Source: Rhodothalassiaceae bacterium
GTDB lineage: Bacteria; Pseudomonadota; Alphaproteobacteria; Sphingomonadales; Rhodothalassiaceae
Reading direction: 5' to 3'
Length of the DNA stretch: 64,000 bases
NCBI GenBank assembly: GCA_026004935.1
Contig: BPKC01000001.1
Location: 1,837,491-1,901,490, forward strand
In this document: positions 34,971 through 51,055 of the stretch, in pieces
Numbering within the stretch: position 1 is the stretch's first letter
How the letters are laid out: the number at the start of each line of letters is the position of its first letter
Translations under genes and position numbers: made by a program
Notes under the pieces: model-generated
What the model was told of the DNA's origin: nothing
The model's database searches: none
The model's input: the letters and a program-made list of their open reading frames with translations, nothing else

Positions 34971-36401
34971 TCACGCGCCTCCGGCAGCCCGAGCCGCGCG
35001 CGCCCTGCCCGGGCCGAACCGCTTCTCCCAGCGCGCGCGGGCGATCGGCGAGAGCTTGACGCGCATCAGCCGCCGGCCGTCGTCATCCCAGCGTTCGTCC
35101 AGCACGGTGCCGTGGGCGTGAAGCCAGGCGCCGGCCTCCGCCTCCCCCGGATCGAGGGTGAGCACGAGCTCCGCATGCGCGCGGGTGAAATGGGCCTTGA
35201 GCCGATCCGCCAGCGCATCGAGCCCATCGCCGGTGAGCGCCGAGATCGCGACCGCCCCGGCGGCCCCGGCCTGGGCCAGCACGGCCTCGCGCCGGCGGGG
35301 ATCGCTCAGCCGATCGATCTTGTTCCAGACCTCGATCACCGGCGGCGAGTCCGCATGCATGGGCCCGACCGCGAGCTCGTCCAGCACCGCCTCGACATCC
35401 GCCTTCTGCGCCTCGGTTTCGGGATGCGTGATGTCGCGCACATGCAGCACCAGATCGGCCGCCGTCACCTCCTCCAGCGTCGCGCGGAAGGCGGCGACCA
35501 GGCCGTGGGGCAGCTCGGAGATGAAGCCCACCGTGTCCGAGAGGATCACCTTCTCGTGCGGGCCGATGGAAATCGCGCGCATCGTGGGGTCGAGCGTCTC
35601 GAACAGCCGGTCCGCCGCGCGCACGTCCGCCGCCGTCAGCCGGTTGAAAAGCGTCGATTTGCCGGCATTGGTGTAGCCGACGAGCGCGACCACCGGCCAG
35701 GGCACCTCCTGGCGGGCGCGGCGGTGGATCGCGCGCGTCCGCGCGACGCGCTGGAGCTGCCGGCGGATGCGGGTGATGCGCTCGTCGATCTGGCGGCGGT
35801 CCGCCTCGATCTGGGTCTCGCCCGGGCCGCCGAGAAACCCGAAGCCGCCGCGCTGGCGCTCGAGATGCGTCCAGGAGCGCACGAGCCGCGAACGCTGATA
35901 CTGCAGATGCGCGAGCTCCACCTGCAGCACGCCCTCGCGCGTGCGCGCGCGCGCCCCGAAGATCTCGAGGATGAGGCCGGTGCGGTCGATGACCTTGGCC
36001 TTCCACGCCCGCTCCAGATTGCGCTGCTGCACGGGGGTGAGCGTGCCGCCGACGACAACGAGCTCCGCACCCGTGGCCGCGACCTCTTCGGCGATCGCGG
36101 CGACCTGCCCGTCGCCGAAGAAGGTCGCCGGGCGCGGCCGGCGCACGGGGAGGATGCGCGCGAGCGCGATGTCGAGCTCGATCGCCTCCGCCAGGCCTTC
36201 CAGCTCGGCCAGACGCTCGGCGCCGCTGCGCTCATGGCGCGGGGCCGGACGCATGTCCGCACCCGGCTGGGGGCCGCGCAGGTCCGGCTGGACGAGCACC
36301 GCGCGCGTCGCCCGCCCCTCGCGCGCGCGCATGCGCTCTACGAGCGACCCGGCTGCCCGCTCGACGCTCGCGAAGTCCTGACGCGGATCCTGCGGCTTCA
36401 C
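34971..36401 (-). CDS. hflX: GTPase HflX
   Basis: HflX is a ribosome-associated GTPase that splits stalled ribosomes. The 476-aa protein has the HflX N-terminal domain with [20 protein letters not shown] and [15 protein letters not shown]. The G domain follows: G1 [10 protein letters not shown]3 [11 protein letters not shown]4 NKIDRL. A C-terminal domain with [20 protein letters not shown] closes the protein. Its predicted GTG start overlaps the hfq stop by 4 bp (GTGA), so the two are translationally coupled, as in many proteobacteria. Confidence 0.95.
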
Positions 36402-36649
36402 GATTCGGCGCGGTCCTCCTCCGGCTCGAAGAGCTTGACCGGCTGCTGCGGCATCACCGTCGAGATCGCGTGCTTGTAGACGAGCTGGGAATGGCCGTCC
36501 CGGCGCAGCAGCACGCAGAAATTGTCGAACCAGGTGATGATGCCCTGAAGCTTCACCCCGTTGATGAGGAACACCGTCACCGGAGTCTTGTTCTTGCGGA
36601 CATGGTTGAGGAAGATGTCCTGAAGATTGTTGCTGTTCTTGTCGGCCAT
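36398..36649 (-). CDS. hfq: RNA chaperone Hfq
   Basis: Hfq forms a hexamer that pairs small RNAs with mRNAs. The 83-aa protein has Sm1 ([20 protein letters not shown]), the [20 protein letters not shown] strand region and the Sm2 YKHAIST signature. A short acidic tail (EPEEDRAES) is typical of alphaproteobacterial Hfq. The ATG at 36649 gives the family N terminus [11 protein letters not shown]. The 237 bp upstream to holC hold no gene I can support. Confidence 0.97.
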
Positions 36650-36886
36650 GGTCCGATTGTCTTTCTTGTCCTGATCGTTCGGTGATCGTGACGGCCGTGC
36701 CGAAGCTTCATCGGCCCCTTGCCACCGCGGCCGGTTCATCCCCTTCCGGCCGCGTCTCACAGATGGAGAAATTTTCGATCGCTTTCAAGACGGCGGCGGA
36801 AAAATGCGGTCCCGCCCGGCGGCGACCGCATCATCGCACGAGGGGGAGTCCGCGCCCCGCGCGGCGTCTCTTGCGCGGCGGCGTCC

Positions 36887-41535: not shown

Positions 41536-41616
41536 AATCACCGCTTCGGACGGGCCGGCGTTCCCTCCAAATCGGCCGTGACAGCCACCATATACGGGAC
41601 GACCAGGGAGAGACCG

Positions 41617-44600
41617 ATGCGAATCGAGCGGCGATTCACGAAGGCGGGCGAAAGTCCCTACGCCGGCATCCGCTGGAAGAAGGCCAAGTCCGAGATCCGC
41701 AATCCCGACGGCAGCGTCGTCTTCCGCATGGATGCGGTCGAGGTGCCGGAGTCCTGGTCGCAGGTGGCGACCGACGTCATCGCCCAGAAGTATTTCCGCA
41801 AGGCCGGCGTGCCCCAGGCGCTCAAATCCGTGGAGGAGCCGGACGTGCCCTCCTGGCTGTGGCGCCGGGAGGCCGACGAGGAGGCGCTCGCCAGGCTTCC
41901 GGAAGACCGCCGCACGGGCTCCGAGACCAGTGCCAAGCAGGTCTTCGACCGGCTCGCCGGCACCTGGACCTGGTGGGGCTGGAAGGCCGGCTACTTCGAT
42001 TCGGAGAGTGATGCCCGCGCCTTCTTCGACGAGCTGCGCTACATGCTCGCCCACCAGATGGCGGCGCCCAACTCGCCGCAGTGGTTCAACACCGGACTCC
42101 ACTGGGCCTATGGCATCGACGGGCCGGCGCAGGGACATTTCTACGTCGATCACACGACCGGCGAGGTCAAACGCTCGACCAGCGCCTACGAGCGCCCGCA
42201 GCCGCATGCCTGCTTCATCCAGTCGGTGGCCGACGATCTCGTCAACGAGGGTGGCATCATGGATCTGTGGGTGCGCGAGGCGCGCCTGTTCAAATACGGC
42301 TCGGGCACCGGCACCAACTTCTCCAATCTGCGCGGCGAGGGCGAGCCGCTGTCCGGCGGCGGCCGCTCCTCGGGGCTGATGAGCTTCCTCAAGATCGGCG
42401 ACCGCGCGGCGGGCGCCATCAAGTCCGGCGGCACCACCCGGCGCGCGGCCAAGATGGTGATCGTGGACATCGACCATCCCGACATCGAGGAGTTCATCGA
42501 CTGGAAGGTCCGCGAGGAGCAGAAGGTGGCGGCGCTGGTCGCCGGCTCGCGGCTCGCCAGCCGGCATTTGAACCGCATCATGGAGGCCTGCCACCGTCAG
42601 CGGGACCGGCTGGGCGATGACGCCTTCGACCCGAAGAAGAACGAGGCGCTGAAAGCCGAGATCATCGCCGCGCGGCGCGCCGAGATCCCGGACAACTACA
42701 TCTTCCGTGTCATCCAGCTCGCGCGCCAGGGCGCGACGGGCATCGATTTTCCCGTCTTCGATACGGACTGGGACGGCGAGGCCTATGCCACCGTCTCCGG
42801 CCAGAACTCCAACAACTCCGTGCGGGTGTCCGACGCCTTCATGGAGGCGGTGCACAGGGGTCTGCCGTGGAAGCTGACGCGGCGCACCGATGGCGCGGTC
42901 GCGCGCACGGTGGATGCCGGCGAGCTGTGGGAGAAGGTCGCCTATGCGGCCTGGGCCTGCGCGGATCCGGGCGTGCAGTTCGACACGACCATCAACGACT
43001 GGCACACCTGCCCGGCCTCGGGCCGGATCCGGGCCTCCAACCCCTGCTCGGAATACATGTTCCTGGATGACACGGCCTGCAATCTGGCCTCGCTCAACCT
43101 CATGGCCTTCCGCTCCGAGGACGGGCGCTTCCGGGTCGCCGACTTCGCCCATGCGGTGCGGCTGTGGACGATCGTGCTCGAGATCTCGGTGCTGATGGCG
43201 CAGTTCCCCTCCGCCCGCATCGCCGAGCTCAGCTACCGCTTCCGCACGCTCGGCCTCGGCTATGCGAATCTCGGCGGGCTGCTGATGTCGCTTGGGCTTC
43301 CCTATGACAGCGACGAGGGCCGGGCGCTGGCCGGTGCCATCACCGCCCTGCTCACCGGCGTCGCCTACCGCACCTCCGCCGAGATGGCCGAAGAGCTCGG
43401 CGCCTTCCCGGGCTATGCGGAGAACGCCGGGCACATGCTGCGCGTCATCCGCAACCACCGGCGCGCGGCCCATGGCGAGAAGACGGGCTACGAGGCGCTC
43501 CACACGCCGCCCGTGCCGCTCGATCACGCCCACTGCCCCGATGCGGGGCTGCTCGAGGCCGCGGTGAAGGCCTGGGACGAGGCGCTGGCGCTGGGCGAGA
43601 AGCACGGCTTCCGCAACGCCCAGGTCTCCGTGATCGCGCCCACCGGCACCATCGGCCTCGTGATGGACTGCGACACCACCGGCATCGAGCCGGACTACGC
43701 GCTCGTCAAGTTCAAGAAGCTGGCGGGCGGTGGCTACTTCAAGATCATCAACAGGATCGTGCCGCAGGCCCTTGAAGTGCTTGGCTATTCCAAGGACGAG
43801 ATCGCGGAGATCATCGCCTATGCCGTGGGCCGCGGCACGCTCGAAGGCGCCCCCTTCATCAACCCCGAGACCTTGAAGGAGAAAGGCTTCGGCACGGCCC
43901 AGATCCAGGCCGTCGAAGAGCAGCTCGCCCAGGCCTTCGACATCCGCTTCGCCTTCAACCGCTGGACCCTGGGCGACGACTTCTGCCGCAACGTCCTGGG
44001 GCTCACGGACGAGCAGCTGGCGGATGTCACCCTCGACATCCTCTCCCACCTCGGCTTCAGCGACGAGGAGATCGAGGCGGCGAACACCTACGTGTGCGGC
44101 GCGATGACGCTCGAAGGCGCGCCGCATCTGAAAGACGAGCATCTGCCCGTCTTCGACTGCGCGAGCCCCTGCGGCCGGCGCGGGAAGCGCTTCCTGAGCT
44201 GGGAGGCGCACATCCGCATGATGGCGGCGGCCCAGCCCTTCATCTCGGGCGCGATCTCCAAGACCATCAACATGCCGAATGCGGCCACCGTCGAGGACTG
44301 CCGCAAGGCCTACGAGCTCGCCTGGCGGCTGGGGCTGAAGGCGATCGCGCTCTACCGCGACGGCTCCAAGCTCTCCCAGCCGCTCGCCGGCCAGCTCCTG
44401 TCCGCGGAGGATCTGGAGATCCTCACGGACGACGAGACGGCGCCGGGCGAGAAGGCCCGCGTGATCGCCGAGCGGGTGGTCGAGAAGGTCGTGGAGGTCG
44501 AGCGCGTCGTGCGCGGCGAGCGCCGGCGGCTGCCGCAGCGGCGCAAGGGCTACACCCAGAAGGCCATCGTCGGCGGCCACAAGGTCTATCTGCGCACCGG

Positions 44601-45288
44601 CGAATACGACGACGGCACGCTGGGCGAGATCTTCATCGACATGCACAAGGAAGGCGCCGCCTTCCGCGCGATGATGAACAACTTCGCCATCGCGATCTCC
44701 ATCGGCCTGCAGTACGGCGTGCCGCTGGAGGAATTCGTGGACGCCTTCACCTTCACCCGCTTCGAGCCCTACGGCCGGGTGGAAGGCAACGACGCCATCA
44801 AGATGGCGACCTCCATCCTCGACTACATCTTCCGCGAGCTCGCAATCTCCTACTTGGGCCGCACCGAGCTCGCCCATGTCGAGCCGGAGGATCTGCGCCA
44901 CGACACGCTCGGCCGCGGCGCACGCGAAGGCGCGGCGGGTGAGGCCGGCGGCAAGGAGGACGTGGCGGCCGAAGAGGTGCTGAAAAAGCTCGCCTCCACC
45001 GGCTATGTGCGCTCCAACCTCTATGTGCTGAAGGGCGGCGGCCGGAAGCAGGGTGGCGCGCGGCCGGCCGAGGCCCGCAGCCATGACGAGACGACGGCCG
45101 ACCACGGGCTCCAGCAGGCGGTCGGGCACGACATGGTCGTCGGCGCCGGCGCGGCAGACGCCCGCACGCTGGCCCGCATGCAGGGGTTCGAGGGCGATGC
45201 CTGCGGCGAATGCGGCAACTTCACCCTCGTGCGCAACGGCACCTGCCTCAAATGCGCGACCTGCGGGGCGACGACGGGCTGCAGCTGA
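41617..45288 (+). CDS. nrdJ: Adenosylcobalamin-dependent (class II) ribonucleotide reductase
   Basis: NrdJ makes deoxyribonucleotides using a B12-derived thiyl radical and needs neither oxygen nor a second subunit. The 1223-aa protein begins [11 protein letters not shown]. It has the substrate and radical regions [29 protein letters not shown] and [20 protein letters not shown] (catalytic cysteine), plus [20 protein letters not shown]. The C-terminal zinc finger [22 protein letters not shown] carries redox cysteines. The length of about 1,200 aa is the alphaproteobacterial form. GGGAG precedes the ATG; an in-frame ATG at 41578 is less likely. No other RNR gene is nearby. Confidence 0.95.
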
Positions 45289-45366: not shown

Positions 45367-45536
45367 CTCCTTTCGGGCATCCGGCCGCCGCCCGGCTTCC
45401 GCCGCCCGCATGGCGAAGGAAAGATCGCCGAAGGGCGCGCCCGGTCGACGGGCTCCGCACGTTGCTCCGCCCACCGGGTGACAACGGGGGCGCAACCCGG
45501 CAGGTAACGAAAAGGCGACCGGGGGATGCCGCCTCC

Positions 45537-45956
45537 CTCTCGCGTCGTTCGCCGGCTTGACCGGCGAACCCATCGGCGGGGGACGGCAGCTCCGACGGCG
45601 GTAATTGGCCCCGCCGTCGGCTGGATCCGCCGATCAAGTCGGCGGATGACGAGAAGGGGACCGGACCCGCCGGTCAAGCGGGCGGGTGATACCCTTTCTC
45701 TTCGTCATTCGCCGCGAAGGCGGCGAATCCAGCCGCCATGCGTGACGATCCCGGCGCTTGGGGTTGCTTCCCTTTCCGCTGGACCCGCCGGTCAAGCCGG
45801 CGGGTGACGAAGAGAAAGGTGCCGGCGGGTGACGAAGAGAAAGGTGCCGGCGGGTGACGAAGAGAAAGGTGCCGGCGGGTGACGAAGAGAGTGTGACGGC
45901 GGGTGACATCCTTCCTCCTCGTCATTCGCCGCGAAAGCGGCGAATCCAGCCGCCGG
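45537..45956. repeat. Repeat array R5 with a 25-bp minisatellite
   Basis: C, A and B palindromes lie between the 3' ends of nrdJ and the chorismate mutase gene. A variant palindrome with arms ATCCGCCGA and TCGGCGGAT occurs at 45625-45647. The 25-bp unit at 45796-45820 is repeated at 45821-45845 and 45846-45870, then partially at 45871-45890. Each unit is half of an A palindrome plus GACGAAGAGAAAGGT. Confidence 0.88.
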
Positions 45957-46026
45957 GCGAGACGGCGTCCGCTGCGGAGAATTGCCCGTGCCGCCTGCCG
46001 GACCCGCCGGCCGGCGCGAGCAGGCC

Positions 46027-46124
46027 GCATAAAAGTGGCCCGAAGGGCGATGGGGGGAACCCTTCGGGCCGGATGCGCACCGGTGCGTCGTCGTGCACGC
46101 ATCGCACGTCTCGATGAGGTGCGA
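46027..46124 (-). ncRNA. Candidate small RNA ending in an intrinsic terminator
   Basis: On the minus strand a possible promoter (TTGCAC at 46158-46153, 17 bp, CTAGGG at 46135-46130) is followed by about 95 nt that fold well. The 3' end is a perfect 11-bp hairpin (arms GGCCCGAAGGG and CCCTTCGGGCC, 46037-46070), then CAC and TTTT. The segment codes for nothing convincing and lies outside the repeat modules. I do not recognise a known RNA family. Confidence 0.4.
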
Positions 46125-46321
46125 ATCACCCCTAGCCGATTCGCCGCCCCGCGTGCAAGCAAAAAGTTTCGGTATATTTCTCACCGCTCACGACAATGGA
46201 GCCGACGCCGCGGAGTCAGGTCGCCTCCCCCGGCCGCGACCGGCCTCTTCACAGGATCGGCCCGCCTCGTGAAGTTTCTGGACGCGAGAAGATTCCGCCG
46301 CCATGCTCCGCGGCCGCCGCC

Positions 46322-46654
46322 TTACGACGCCGGATCCCCGTCCCCGCGGCGGTCGAAACAGGCGAACTCGTAGGCGATGGAGCGGGCGATGATATTTCGA
46401 TAGATGTCGACCAGCGCCCGCACGACCTCCTCCTCCGCGCCGGCCGCGCGCGCCACGGCGGCCACATGGGCGAGCACCTCGCGCTTGCGGGGCGCGTCGT
46501 AGACCGTCTCGCGGCTGGTCTTGATGTGGGCGGCCTCCTTCATGCAGGCGAAGCGGCGGACAAGGCGCGCCGCGATTTCCTCGTCCAGCGCGTCGATGCG
46601 CCGGCGCAGCGCCGCCATGTCCCGCACCCCGGTCTCTTCCGACCCATCCGCCAT
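46322..46654 (-). CDS. Chorismate mutase (AroQ type)
   Basis: This enzyme converts chorismate to prephenate for phenylalanine and tyrosine synthesis. The 110-aa all-helical protein has MAALRRRIDALDEEIAARLV as helix 1 with the active-site Arg. VRRFACMKEAAHIK supplies the Lys, RKREVLAHVAAVA follows, and IYRNIIARSIAYEFACF forms the last helix. It is a free-standing mutase with no dehydratase fused. Isochorismate-pyruvate lyase shares the fold and is a less likely alternative. The ATG at 46618 is an internal alternative start. Confidence 0.85.
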   Translation of the reverse strand: MADGSEETGVRDMAALRRRIDALDEEIAARLVRRFACMKEAAHIKTSRETVYDAPRKREVLAHVAAVARAAGAEEEVVRALVDIYRNIIARSIAYEFACFDRRGDGDPAS

Positions 46655-46776
46655 CGCGCGTTCCGCCCCGTCCTGCCGGTTCCGTCGCCTGCCGGAGACG
46701 GGGATAGCCGGTTCGCGCGCCGCGCGCCAGCACCCGTGCGGGATGAGATCCGCCGCCGGCGGGCGCCGGCAGCCGG

Positions 46777-47631
46777 CTACCGGCCCCCGGGCCGGGCCGG
46801 AGCGGGGGCCGCGGCCGGTTGCGGCAGCCGGCCGGTGATGAGCGCGCGGGCGCGCGCCGGCCCGTCGAGCTCGGCGACCGCCCGGTAGAAGGCGAGCGCC
46901 GCATCCGTAAGGCCGGCCTCGAGCGCGAGCCGGCGCGCCTGCTCCCCGTCGCCGGCCAGCATCGCCGCAAGCACGAGATTGCGCAGCGCAAGCTGACGCA
47001 GGGACGGCCCGCGCTCGGCCAGCATCGACAGCAGATCATTCGCCGCGGCGAGATCTTCCGCCAGGGCGTAGGAAAGCGCGAGATTGACGATGAGACCGGG
47101 ATCGTCCGGAAAGCGCTGCAGGCCCTCGGCATAGGTCATGCGGGCGGCGAGCCCGTCGCCGCGCCACTCGGCGATCAGGCCCCTGATGCGGTAGTAGCCG
47201 GCCGGGCGGCGTGCGGGCGGGATCGCATCGAGTGCAGCCTGCGCCCGCTCGGGTGAACCTTCGCGCAGCGCCTCGGCCGCGCGCGCCACCGCGAGCAGGG
47301 GATGGTCCGGCTCGAGCGCCGCGATCCGCCCGAGCGCCATTTCGGCGATATCCTCGCGCCCGACGACCTCGGCGAGCTCATGCACGCGCACCCAGCGCGC
47401 GACGTCCCCCGGCGCGCGTTCGGCCGCGCGCAAGGCGAATCCCAGCGCCGTCTCGTGGGCACCGCGCTGCGCGAGCCTGGACACCATCTCGTCTAGCGCG
47501 GCCGGATCGTCGAGCCGGGCGGACGGCGATCCCGGTGCCGGGGGCAGATCGGCGTCCATCGCGCAGCCGACGAGCGCCAGCACGGGCAGCAGCGGAAACA
47601 TGCGCCGGACGGTTTGCCGGAAACGGACCAT
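46777..47631 (-). CDS. TPR lipoprotein
   Basis: The 284-aa precursor has a lipobox LVGC at about residue 23, so it is probably an outer- or inner-membrane lipoprotein facing the periplasm. The rest is tetratricopeptide-like helical repeats (ALGFALRAAERAPGDVARWV, AARMTYAEGLQRFPDDPGLI, NLALSYALAEDLAAANDLL). It resembles TadD-type pilus-assembly TPR lipoproteins, but no tad genes are visible. An ATG at 47601 would give a shorter, more typical signal. It ends 122 bp before the chorismate mutase gene on the same strand. Confidence 0.7.
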   Translation of the reverse strand: MVRFRQTVRRMFPLLPVLALVGCAMDADLPPAPGSPSARLDDPAALDEMVSRLAQRGAHETALGFALRAAERAPGDVARWVRVHELAEVVGREDIAEMALGRIAALEPDHPLLAVARAAEALREGSPERAQAALDAIPPARRPAGYYRIRGLIAEWRGDGLAARMTYAEGLQRFPDDPGLIVNLALSYALAEDLAAANDLLSMLAERGPSLRQLALRNLVLAAMLAGDGEQARRLALEAGLTDAALAFYRAVAELDGPARARALITGRLPQPAAAPAPARPGGR

Positions 47632-48404: not shown

Positions 48405-48481
48405 ATCTCCGTCGCCCCGGGGAGGACGACGAATGAGGCCGCGTCAGACGGCTCGTGCGTGCCGGAAGAGGGAGAACACCC

Positions 48482-51055
48482 ATGCCTGCATCCTGCGCCC
48501 CCTTTGTCACCAGCGCATCCGCGCTCCCGTTTTCGGACGGATACCGCCGCCGCAGCGCCCGGCTCGCCGCCGGGGTGGCGCTCGTCGCCCTGCTCGCCGG
48601 TGGCGCCGCCGCGGCCGAGGAGACGGCCGCGGCCTCCGCAGAACAGCCGCAGACCGCGGCGGACCAATCTCAAACCTCGGCCCAGTCGGGTGGCCGGCTG
48701 CTCGAAGAGATCGTCGTCACCGCCCAGAAGCGCGAGCAGAACGTCCAGTCCGTCGGCATCGCGATCGACGCCTTTTCCGGCGAGCAGCTCGAGGACTTCG
48801 GCATCCAGTCCAGCATGGACGTGGCGACCATCTCGCCGGGCGTCCATGTGGCGGGCAGCCATGCGGGTCAGCAGCTCCAGTTCAGCATCCGCGGCGTCGT
48901 CAACAACGACTTCAACCCCGTCGTCGAAACGCCGAACGCCGTCTATCTCGACGAGGCCTACATCGCCGCGCTGCCGGGGCAGAACTTCGGTCTCTTCGAC
49001 ATCGAGCGCGTCGAGATCCTCAAGGGGCCCCAGGGCACGCTCTTCGGCCGCAACGCGACCGGCGGCCTCGTCCACTACATCTCCCGCCAGCCCACCTTCG
49101 ACCGCTGGGAAGGCTACGCGGACGGCGAATTCGGCCTGTTCGATTCGCCGGCCGACGCCTACGGCGGGCGGATCACGGCGGCGCTGGGCGGCCCGCTGTC
49201 GGACACCGTCGCCACGCGCGCCGCGATCTACTGGAAGCGCCACGGCGGCTATCTGAAGAACCTCTATCCGCTGGGTGCCGTCGGCGGCGCGCCCGGGCCG
49301 GGTGCCGGCGCGGACATGGGCGATGACGACACCCTCGGCAGCCGGCTGATCCTCACCTTCGAGCCGAGCGACCGGCTGCAGATCCGGCTGACCGGCAACT
49401 TCACCCGCTCGCGGCTCGCCTCCTCTCCCTATCAGGCCAAGCCCACGATCGCGGTGTTCGACGAAGTCGGCGGCGGGCTCGAGATCGTGAACGTCCTGGA
49501 CGTCGGCCCGAACGAGACCCGCGCGAGCATCGGCCCGGGCGGCATCGACCTCGGTACCGATCTCGACAACGACGCCCTCTTCGGCAGCCAGGACGCGCCG
49601 GGGTCCGAGTTCTTCGGGCGGTTTGCGCCGGGCGGCGACTTCTTCGGCTATCGCGACCCGGACGGCCCGGGCTGGCTGACCTCGGCCGATTTCGCCTTCA
49701 AGGACCACAACTTCACCCGCAGCTGGGGCTGGAACGGCCGCGTGAAGTACGACATCAACCAGGAGATCACGCTCACCTGGATCGGCGACTTCAAGAGCTA
49801 CGACGAGCTGATCTTTCTCGACGTCGATGCCGCGCCCGTCAATCAGTCGGCGAACTACGCGGCGATCGACGCGACGAGCGTCAGCCAGGAGCTCAGGCTC
49901 AACGGCCGCCACGGGCCGCTGACCTGGGTTGCGGGCTTCTACTATCTCAACATCGACAACAATTCGGACGACGGCCTGAAGTTCCCGATCAACAGCGTCG
50001 TCCCCGGCTCGCCCTTCGATCTCAACTCCGAGGCCAATCTCGAGACCAACTCCTATTCGGGCTTCGTGCACGTCCAGTACGACGTGAACGAGCGGCTCTC
50101 GCTGATCCTCGGCGTGCGCCTGATCGAGGAAAAGAAGGACTACTTCTTCGAGCAGGCGATCTACGGGACGCAGAGCAGCTTCGAGATCAAGACCGGGCCG
50201 AAGTTCGCGGTCATCGGACCCGTCTTCGGGCCCGGCGGGCCGGAGCCCTTCACGGCGAAAACCTCCGACACGCTCTGGGCCGGCGTGGCGCGCGTCGAAT
50301 ACCACGTGACGCCGGATGTCATGCTGTGGGCCTCGGCCAAGCGCGGGGTGAAGGCGGGCAGCTTCAACGCCCAGCTCGCCGGCGGCCTCGGCGTGCCCGC
50401 GAGCGCCATCCCCTACCGGCCGGAGGTCCTCTACGCCTACGAGACCGGCCTCAAGTCGACGATCCTCGACGGCATGGGCCGCTTCAACGCCAACTTCTTC
50501 TACTACGACTACGACGACTATCAGGCCTTCCTGTTCACCGGCGTGTCCGGTGTCGTCGTCAACAACGACGCGACCTACAAGGGGCTCGAGGGCGATCTGA
50601 CGCTTTCGCCCGTGGACGGCCTCGACATCCGGCTGTCCGGCGCCTGGATCGACGCGAAGGTCAAGGACGTGCCGCTGCGCGTGGGCGGGCCGATCGTGCG
50701 TGACGTGCGGCCGACCTACACGCCGAAGTTCCAGGCGAACGTTATGGTGGGCTACGCATGGCCGGCCTTCGGCGGTCTCATGCGCATCGTCGGCGAGGGC
50801 AGCTACTCGTCCAGCTTCTTCTACAACCTGCGCAATTTCGATGCGGACAAGTTCGGCTCCTACTTCCTGCTCAACACGCGCCTGGCCTGGACCAGTCCGG
50901 CCGAGCGCTGGGAGGTCGCCTTCAACATCCGCAACCTGACGCAGGAGAAGGCCGGCGTGCTGGGATTCGACCTTGCGACGCTGTGCGGCTGCAACGAGGT
51001 CAGCTACCGCGCCCCACGGTGGTTCGGCCTGCAGGTCAAGTACAGCTACAACTGA
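48482..51055 (+). CDS. TonB-dependent outer membrane receptor
   Basis: The 857-aa receptor takes up an unknown substrate across the outer membrane with TonB-ExbBD energy. A long signal peptide (about 47 residues, ending GGAAAAEE) precedes the TonB box and plug (EEIVVTAQKREQNVQSVGIA, IERVEILKGPQGTLFGRNAT). The 22-stranded barrel ends in FGLQVKYSYN. The plug start and FGRNATGG motif are typical of the large family expanded in Sphingomonadales and Caulobacterales. Ligand cannot be inferred; no siderophore, sugar or B12 uptake gene is adjacent. AGAGGGAG precedes the ATG. Confidence 0.9.
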   Translation: MPASCAPFVTSASALPFSDGYRRRSARLAAGVALVALLAGGAAAAEETAAASAEQPQTAADQSQTSAQSGGRLLEEIVVTAQKREQNVQSVGIAIDAFSGEQLEDFGIQSSMDVATISPGVHVAGSHAGQQLQFSIRGVVNNDFNPVVETPNAVYLDEAYIAALPGQNFGLFDIERVEILKGPQGTLFGRNATGGLVHYISRQPTFDRWEGYADGEFGLFDSPADAYGGRITAALGGPLSDTVATRAAIYWKRHGGYLKNLYPLGAVGGAPGPGAGADMGDDDTLGSRLILTFEPSDRLQIRLTGNFTRSRLASSPYQAKPTIAVFDEVGGGLEIVNVLDVGPNETRASIGPGGIDLGTDLDNDALFGSQDAPGSEFFGRFAPGGDFFGYRDPDGPGWLTSADFAFKDHNFTRSWGWNGRVKYDINQEITLTWIGDFKSYDELIFLDVDAAPVNQSANYAAIDATSVSQELRLNGRHGPLTWVAGFYYLNIDNNSDDGLKFPINSVVPGSPFDLNSEANLETNSYSGFVHVQYDVNERLSLILGVRLIEEKKDYFFEQAIYGTQSSFEIKTGPKFAVIGPVFGPGGPEPFTAKTSDTLWAGVARVEYHVTPDVMLWASAKRGVKAGSFNAQLAGGLGVPASAIPYRPEVLYAYETGLKSTILDGMGRFNANFFYYDYDDYQAFLFTGVSGVVVNNDATYKGLEGDLTLSPVDGLDIRLSGAWIDAKVKDVPLRVGGPIVRDVRPTYTPKFQANVMVGYAWPAFGGLMRIVGEGSYSSSFFYNLRNFDADKFGSYFLLNTRLAWTSPAERWEVAFNIRNLTQEKAGVLGFDLATLCGCNEVSYRAPRWFGLQVKYSYN

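Follow-up and report, generated by a model that had tools for sequence, protein, structure and literature searches.

Which of the described small RNAs (sRNAs) come closest to the one analysed here? AlphaR8, mmgR and SisA-D, which we take to be a single family (RF00519, suhB), represent one such group. They are presented as trans-acting sRNAs of alphaproteobacteria that possess a terminator and a core rich in C (PMC12559287). Two further cases come from Caulobacter. In GsrN, according to its report, six tandem C in an exposed loop recognise the G-rich leader of katG, this C-rich loop being located at the 5' end of an RNA with an EcfG-type promoter (PMC5869019). RusT is described as intergenic, 118 nt long and built of stem-loops; a C conserved in one hairpin loop takes part in the predicted target pairing (PMC11005374). 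Finally, the intergenic RepG of Helicobacter pylori is described as using its C/U-rich terminator loop to pair with an mRNA leader carrying a G-repeat (PMC8295292).

The window, by which we mean the whole analysed stretch of 64,000 nucleotides from a Rhodothalassiaceae genome, holds a gap flanked by nrdJ (41578-45288, plus strand; class II ribonucleotide reductase by Pfam) and a chorismate mutase gene (46322-46654, minus strand; Pfam CM_2, E 1.2e-14). This gap is likely coding-free, the open reading frames (ORFs) in it being listed by translation alone, and very probably encodes a small regulatory RNA of about 90 nt, with chorismate mutase, a TPR-like protein and nrdJ as immediate neighbours. 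We regard it as reasonably probable that positions 46122-46031 of the minus strand represent an independently transcribed, intergenic sRNA of about 92 nt and of an undescribed family, which ends in an intrinsic terminator and pairs through an invariant loop with G-rich mRNA, perhaps with the help of Hfq. An Hfq gene, listed for the window in the initial annotation, is located at approximately 36398-36658 (minus strand; Pfam Hfq, E 1e-33). The same annotation had placed the RNA opposite nrdJ and outside the repeats. It is indeed convergent with nrdJ, but does not overlap it, ending about 740 nt past the nrdJ stop codon, and it falls outside the main repeat array at 45543-45964. Much of the space from nrdJ to the sRNA is taken up by that array, in which palindromic GC-rich repeats occur together with GCCGGCGGGTGACGAAGAGAAAGGT, a tandem repeat of 25 nt. 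Also near the locus is a large ORF (48455-51055, plus strand), which by eye resembles a TonB-dependent receptor.

The predicted transcript (46031-46122, minus strand), delineated by its fold, an orthologue in a congener and a family in 14 genomes, and with an inferred 5' end, has three parts. A 5' hairpin, GCAC-CUCAUCGAGAC-GUGC (46104-46122), conserved within the genus only, is followed by a middle stem (46072-46103) and a terminator hairpin (46037-46070); the tail 3' of the latter reads ACUUUU in the sequence (46031-46036). In the terminator, the arms at 46070-46059 and 46048-46037 form a perfect 11-bp stem GGCCCGAAGGG/CCCUUCGGGCC, extended to 12 bp by a U-G closing pair, around the loop UCCCCCCAUC. 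The perfect 11-bp hairpin followed by TTTT that had been annotated before is present on the minus strand, with AC between the stem and TTTT; it has no entry in the list of our automatic terminator scan, which takes only loops of 3-8 nt. Within the loop, the heptamer CCCCAUC (46049-46055) is the presumed target-recognition seed. The previously noted 95 nt or so of foldable sequence is likewise borne out, as the 92-nt RNA folds at -45.9 kcal/mol (z -5.3) with none of 200 shuffles equalling it, and a 104-nt stretch (46130-46027) reaches z -3.3 with none of 200 shuffles as good. The sRNA is single-copy in its own genome, where only its own place among 29 matches covers the full query and the others are short, with E 0.13 or more.

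How is this architecture kept within the genus? The sole other same-genus genome in our family search, MAG J084 (G001, contig RFIU01000086), has the RNA at the same place behind chorismate mutase, the terminator stem beginning 257 nt past the stop codon, compared with 252 nt in the window. With block borders drawn after inspection of the alignment, the 5' hairpin and the terminator are 83% and 86% identical between the two, against 57% for the chorismate mutase gene, 45% for both the promoter stretch and the downstream sequence, 38% for the spacer and 31% for the middle stem. The 5' hairpin block (46122-46100) is the same at 19 of 23 positions; the middle stem block (46099-46071) is so at 9 of 29, yet the stem folds in both genomes. 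To judge from these two sequences, a neutral remnant would not give such a block pattern of conservation.

The promoter-like pair of the initial annotation was not confirmed. The annotation names no hexamers, and TTGCAC (46158-46153) and TAGGGG (46134-46129), with a spacer of 18, were taken as this pair. A promoter scan of 45500-46800 was empty, and the best-scoring pair in the upstream stretch of the window, which differs from TTGCAC/TAGGGG, had p 0.87 against shuffled sequence. The putative, weak promoter TTGCAC-N18-TAGGGG (46129-46158, minus strand), not above chance when taken alone, has its spacing and place in common with TTGCCT-N18-TATAAG of G001; this counterpart, itself at p 0.29, is its sole support. 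The -10 parts of the two align, and the -35 parts lie two columns off and agree by spacing. Upstream of the -35 follows an A/T-rich block, GAAATATACCGAAACTTTTT (46161-46180, minus strand), which the alignment shows to be partly common to G001. Over the upstream stretches of 14 orthologues, the best promoter pair had a p below 0.05 against shuffles in one.

Counting orthologues across genomes yielded 14 carriers: 3 of 7 genomes in the family of the window (G000, G001 and G002), 10 of 29 in the Kordiimonas family, and in a third family one of two genomes (G018). The designation of the RNA as an orphan therefore has to be dropped in view of 13 other genomes, G002 being a weak case among them. A strict terminator pattern, AGGG-N2-5-CCCCCATCGCCCT, which misses G002 and G038, was found in 13 of 296 genomes searched from the order, including a chance match in coding sequence without a stem (L035). 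In a sample of 385 genomes from the class, 5 of them from the order and all searched by the strict pattern only, the window's own genome was the single hit, and the reversed pattern, used as a control, gave none in either set. In a one-genome-per-species collection, 50 stretches fit a slightly longer pattern, nine of which (L039, L049, L050, L056, L062, L064, L068, L070 and L081) have the longer stem and a T-rich tail; they stem from three named species, Kordiimonas gwangyangensis, K. laminariae and K. marina, from an uncultured Kordiimonas and from five MAGs with the label Alphaproteobacteria or Sphingomonadales. We rejected the remaining 41, among them many from Streptomyces, as lacking the longer stem, the T-rich tail or both.

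A covariance model, R1, was built from 11 rows with the window left out, the family having first been gathered with a window-derived pattern, and was searched against 68 genomes under stricter filters and the 29 genomes of the Kordiimonas family. The conservation check that had been proposed for the locus came out positively, R1 scoring the window terminator at 48.4 bits (E 1.5e-9). In addition, R1 recovered G038 (56.8 bits), with a further compensatory stem change, and G002 (32.6 bits, E 3.7e-5). It matches in 17 of the 68 genomes, and in the Kordiimonas family it finds one place in each of the 10 carriers. Matches in G007, G075 and G089 (loci L101, L100 and L102), as well as the extra places L108, L109 and L110, are hairpins without the C loop and were left out, and low-scoring second matches in G027, G048, G060, G063, G081, G095 and G078 represent the counted hairpins in opposite-strand reading. 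G002, whose score is about level with such opposite-strand matches, is the weakest of the 14, with a shorter loop and CCCCAUC in an 11-bp stem (register by eye). It was counted because the heptamer is kept and because the RNA is convergent to a response-regulator gene of the G001 type; without it, the heptamer count is 13 of 13 and the window's family has 2 carriers in 7.

The sRNA family is narrowly distributed, in part of the Kordiimonas-like lineage and mainly in Kordiimonas. R1 detected no copy of the RNA in 19 of the 29 Kordiimonas-family genomes or in 4 of the 7 from the window's family, one of these four being only 64% complete; the RNA is therefore dispensable. A scripted search of about 1.5 kb downstream of chorismate mutase, covering 21 loci (those of 18 genomes without the RNA, and of G038, G063 and G078, which have their copies elsewhere), found no CCCC-loop hairpin at any of them; one of the 18, G075, has its R1 match elsewhere in a hairpin without the C loop. 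Thus, the absence of the RNA looks like real loss or late gain.

What has been kept in the carriers, and what has changed? The loop heptamer CCCCAUC is invariant in all 14 genomes, and in most members it lies inside UNACCCCCAUC. The stem around it, over the same 14 rows, has changed on both sides between A-U and G-C at positions 1, 2, 6 and 7, between C-G and U-A at position 4 and between G-C and A-U at position 10. The closing pair varies between C-G and U-G, with U-A in G002 (register by eye), and the stem of G018 has one unpaired position. In the 11-row alignment, of which 10 rows are distinct, 99.2% of cells pair, and four pairs have changed on both sides, which 2 of 500 shuffles reach; the number of further pair types, one of five covariation measures, is not above shuffles in this alignment. 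All 14 orthologues, with RNA ends of our choosing, fold as one or more 5' hairpins with the terminator close behind (z between -3.9 and -7.7). The 5' parts have no common sequence across families, and that of the window's 5' hairpin is not kept outside the genus. The sole unpaired segment kept in all 14 lies within the C-rich terminator loop. Each family member would accordingly appear to consist of one or more fast-evolving 5' hairpins and, closely behind, a terminator with an unchanging CCCCAUC.

Chorismate mutase, identified by Pfam in the window and in G022 (L027), by protein search in G001, G063 and G078, and by ORF reading elsewhere, is located upstream of the RNA, in the same orientation, in 11 of the 14 orthologue genomes. 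The distance is within about 0.9 kb in nine (G000, G001, G010, G022, G027, G048, G060, G081 and G095) and about 2.2 kb in K. marina (G063) and MAG M2405 (G078), in which a gene resembling glycerol kinase by eye lies between. In the remaining genomes, G038 has a DksA/TraR-type neighbour (Pfam zf-dskA_traR) and its chorismate mutase near the end of another contig, G018 has only a glycerol-kinase-like neighbour on a short contig, and G002 yielded no chorismate mutase, its RNA being convergent to the response-regulator gene.

This arrangement raises the question of whether the element is only the intrinsic terminator, a 3' UTR hairpin, of the chorismate mutase transcript, with no independent RNA. 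Its place 252 nt past the stop codon on the same strand, its end in a short T-tract and the weakness of the window's own promoter would all be compatible with this. However, a terminator has no need of a loop heptamer that stays the same in all 14 genomes, or of a conserved 5' hairpin about 34 nt upstream. Moreover, chorismate mutase and the RNA are separated by an oppositely oriented ORF in G048, G081 and G095, so that the RNA there is not simply the terminator of chorismate mutase, and by the 2.2 kb with the glycerol kinase-like gene in G063 and G078. We therefore consider this explanation unlikely. Given that 3'-UTR-derived sRNAs are common, the RNA could instead be cut by RNase out of the chorismate mutase 3' UTR and act in trans via its loop, for which again the weak promoter and the same-strand gene upstream speak; yet the spacer to chorismate mutase, at 38% identity, is poorly conserved and is broken by the opposite-strand ORF in three orthologues, which leaves this route a low probability as well. 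Quite improbable, finally, is that the loop serves as a protein-binding site or sponge and not as an mRNA-pairing seed: a stem-loop with an invariant loop would also suit recognition by a protein, and the target search below brought up no convincing mRNA, but exposed C runs are known mRNA-pairing seeds in the accounts of GsrN (PMC5869019) and RepG (PMC8295292). Conservation, compensatory changes and synteny give good support to the stand-alone small RNA put forward in the initial annotation.

How might an independently transcribed sRNA of this kind act? We infer its transcription, start site, direction of action, targets and use of Hfq. The most likely mode is action in trans, which had been thought plausible earlier, since every orthologue keeps the C-rich loop and no other unpaired segment is common to them all; the idea stands in this respect, but lacks a convincing target. 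By likeness to RepG and GsrN, the loop would pair with GAUGGGG. It might make a kissing contact with such G-rich sites in mRNA leaders or ribosome-binding sites and thereby repress translation or alter mRNA stability, perhaps with the participation of Hfq, and among members of the genus a second contact could come from the 5' hairpin with its CUCAUC loop.

Searches for such sites in the own genome and in the Kordiimonas family found no convincing mRNA target. Among the matches listed, GATGGGGGT has 21-36 sites in the 10 Kordiimonas-family carriers, the RNA's own complement included, and 10-30 in 7 non-carriers, raw ranges over 17 genomes that overlap. Forty stretches from G048 and G022, 20 from each (of 22 and 20 non-self sites, respectively, among the matches listed), were judged by eye. 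They include one fair ribosome-site case (L192), with no Pfam family, and one site just inside a possible start (L189); other stretches with possible starts nearby were passed over. The own genome has 23 GATGGGGGG sites, one of which is the RNA's own complement. The only fair ribosome-site candidate among them, L229, carries GATGGGGGGAA, an 11-nt complement of the loop and the closing U, beginning 20 nt before the ATG of an ORF of 331 aa that matches no Pfam family and whose N-terminus looks signal-like by eye. As one such match among 22 sites may be chance, L229 is a lead only. In the same locus (L229 331-2516, around C1:1037346), a weakly ATP-grasp-like gene, below the Pfam cut-off, precedes the secreted-looking 331-aa ORF. 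The L230 site precedes a 323-aa ORF with TPR_2 by 33 nt.

Our findings add a conserved sRNA family, with no Rfam 15 match in the scans made, to a little-studied alphaproteobacterial lineage, and they suggest that a terminator-loop seed can be the sole conserved part of an sRNA. Going further, we tentatively envisage, as a possibility short of a probability, an sRNA family pared down to one fixed part: within one gene neighbourhood, an invariant seven-base seed in the terminator loop would persist, with the 5' sequence turning over and the stem drifting by compensatory changes, such that the terminator would be both the end signal and the sole recognition domain for targets that the Kordiimonas-like lineage would have in common. 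The RNA is testable in the cultured K. gwangyangensis, K. laminariae and K. marina.

How, then, does this RNA relate to the known ones? At 46031-46122, no Rfam 15 family matches down to E 5, and in the other orthologue loci scanned the counterpart of the RNA has no Rfam match either; elsewhere in these loci there are a sub-threshold sraL match (L034) and a tRNA with a sub-threshold match (L096). Among the matches listed in literature searches on the loop sequence, on Kordiimonas small RNAs and on C-rich and alphaproteobacterial sRNAs, the RNA is not described. As a positive control, the same Rfam search finds RF00519 in the own genome (L219) and in G002 (L208). The own-genome instance, at L219 1480-1561 (around C1:1504444, 50 bits), is a separate suhB/mmgR sRNA; a second own-genome site, beginning TTTCCTCCCTGAACTTGGGG, is at C1:2120384-2120416. 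Membership in the alphaR8 family was rejected since there is no covariance-model match and the single-stranded core UUUCCUCCCU is absent from the 92-nt RNA: C-richness and a terminator are common to both, whereas the core is found only in alphaR8. Anti-Shine-Dalgarno sRNAs of the NfeR1 type carry a CCUCCUCCC motif, which is equally absent from the 92-nt RNA, and this assignment was rejected too.

With respect to GsrN, the comparison turns on the promoter and on the position of the C-rich loop. The promoter motif of sigma-EcfG is GGAAC-N-GTT, and on the minus strand of 46101-46330 no EcfG-like box was found by strict or loose match. In contrast to GsrN, our RNA has its six-C loop in the 3' terminator and CUCAUCGAGAC as its 5' loop. 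GsrN is typically near the ecfG/nepR/phyR locus, though not in C. crescentus, and the immediate neighbours of our RNA differ. Lacking an EcfG-like box upstream and a C-rich loop at its 5' end, the RNA was not assigned to GsrN. RusT, compared by description only, pairs via its second stem-loop, whereas the presumed seed of our RNA is in the terminator. The RNA shares with RepG a C-rich terminator-hairpin loop that is better conserved than the remainder of the molecule. It differs in that RepG belongs to another phylum and has a reported G-repeat target, and in that the core of our loop is always CCCCAUC. The best reading of these likenesses is that our RNA would resemble RepG in its predicted mechanism only, and thus that it represents a new sRNA family of a familiar mechanism, predicted to act in trans through a terminator-loop seed for G-rich mRNA sites.
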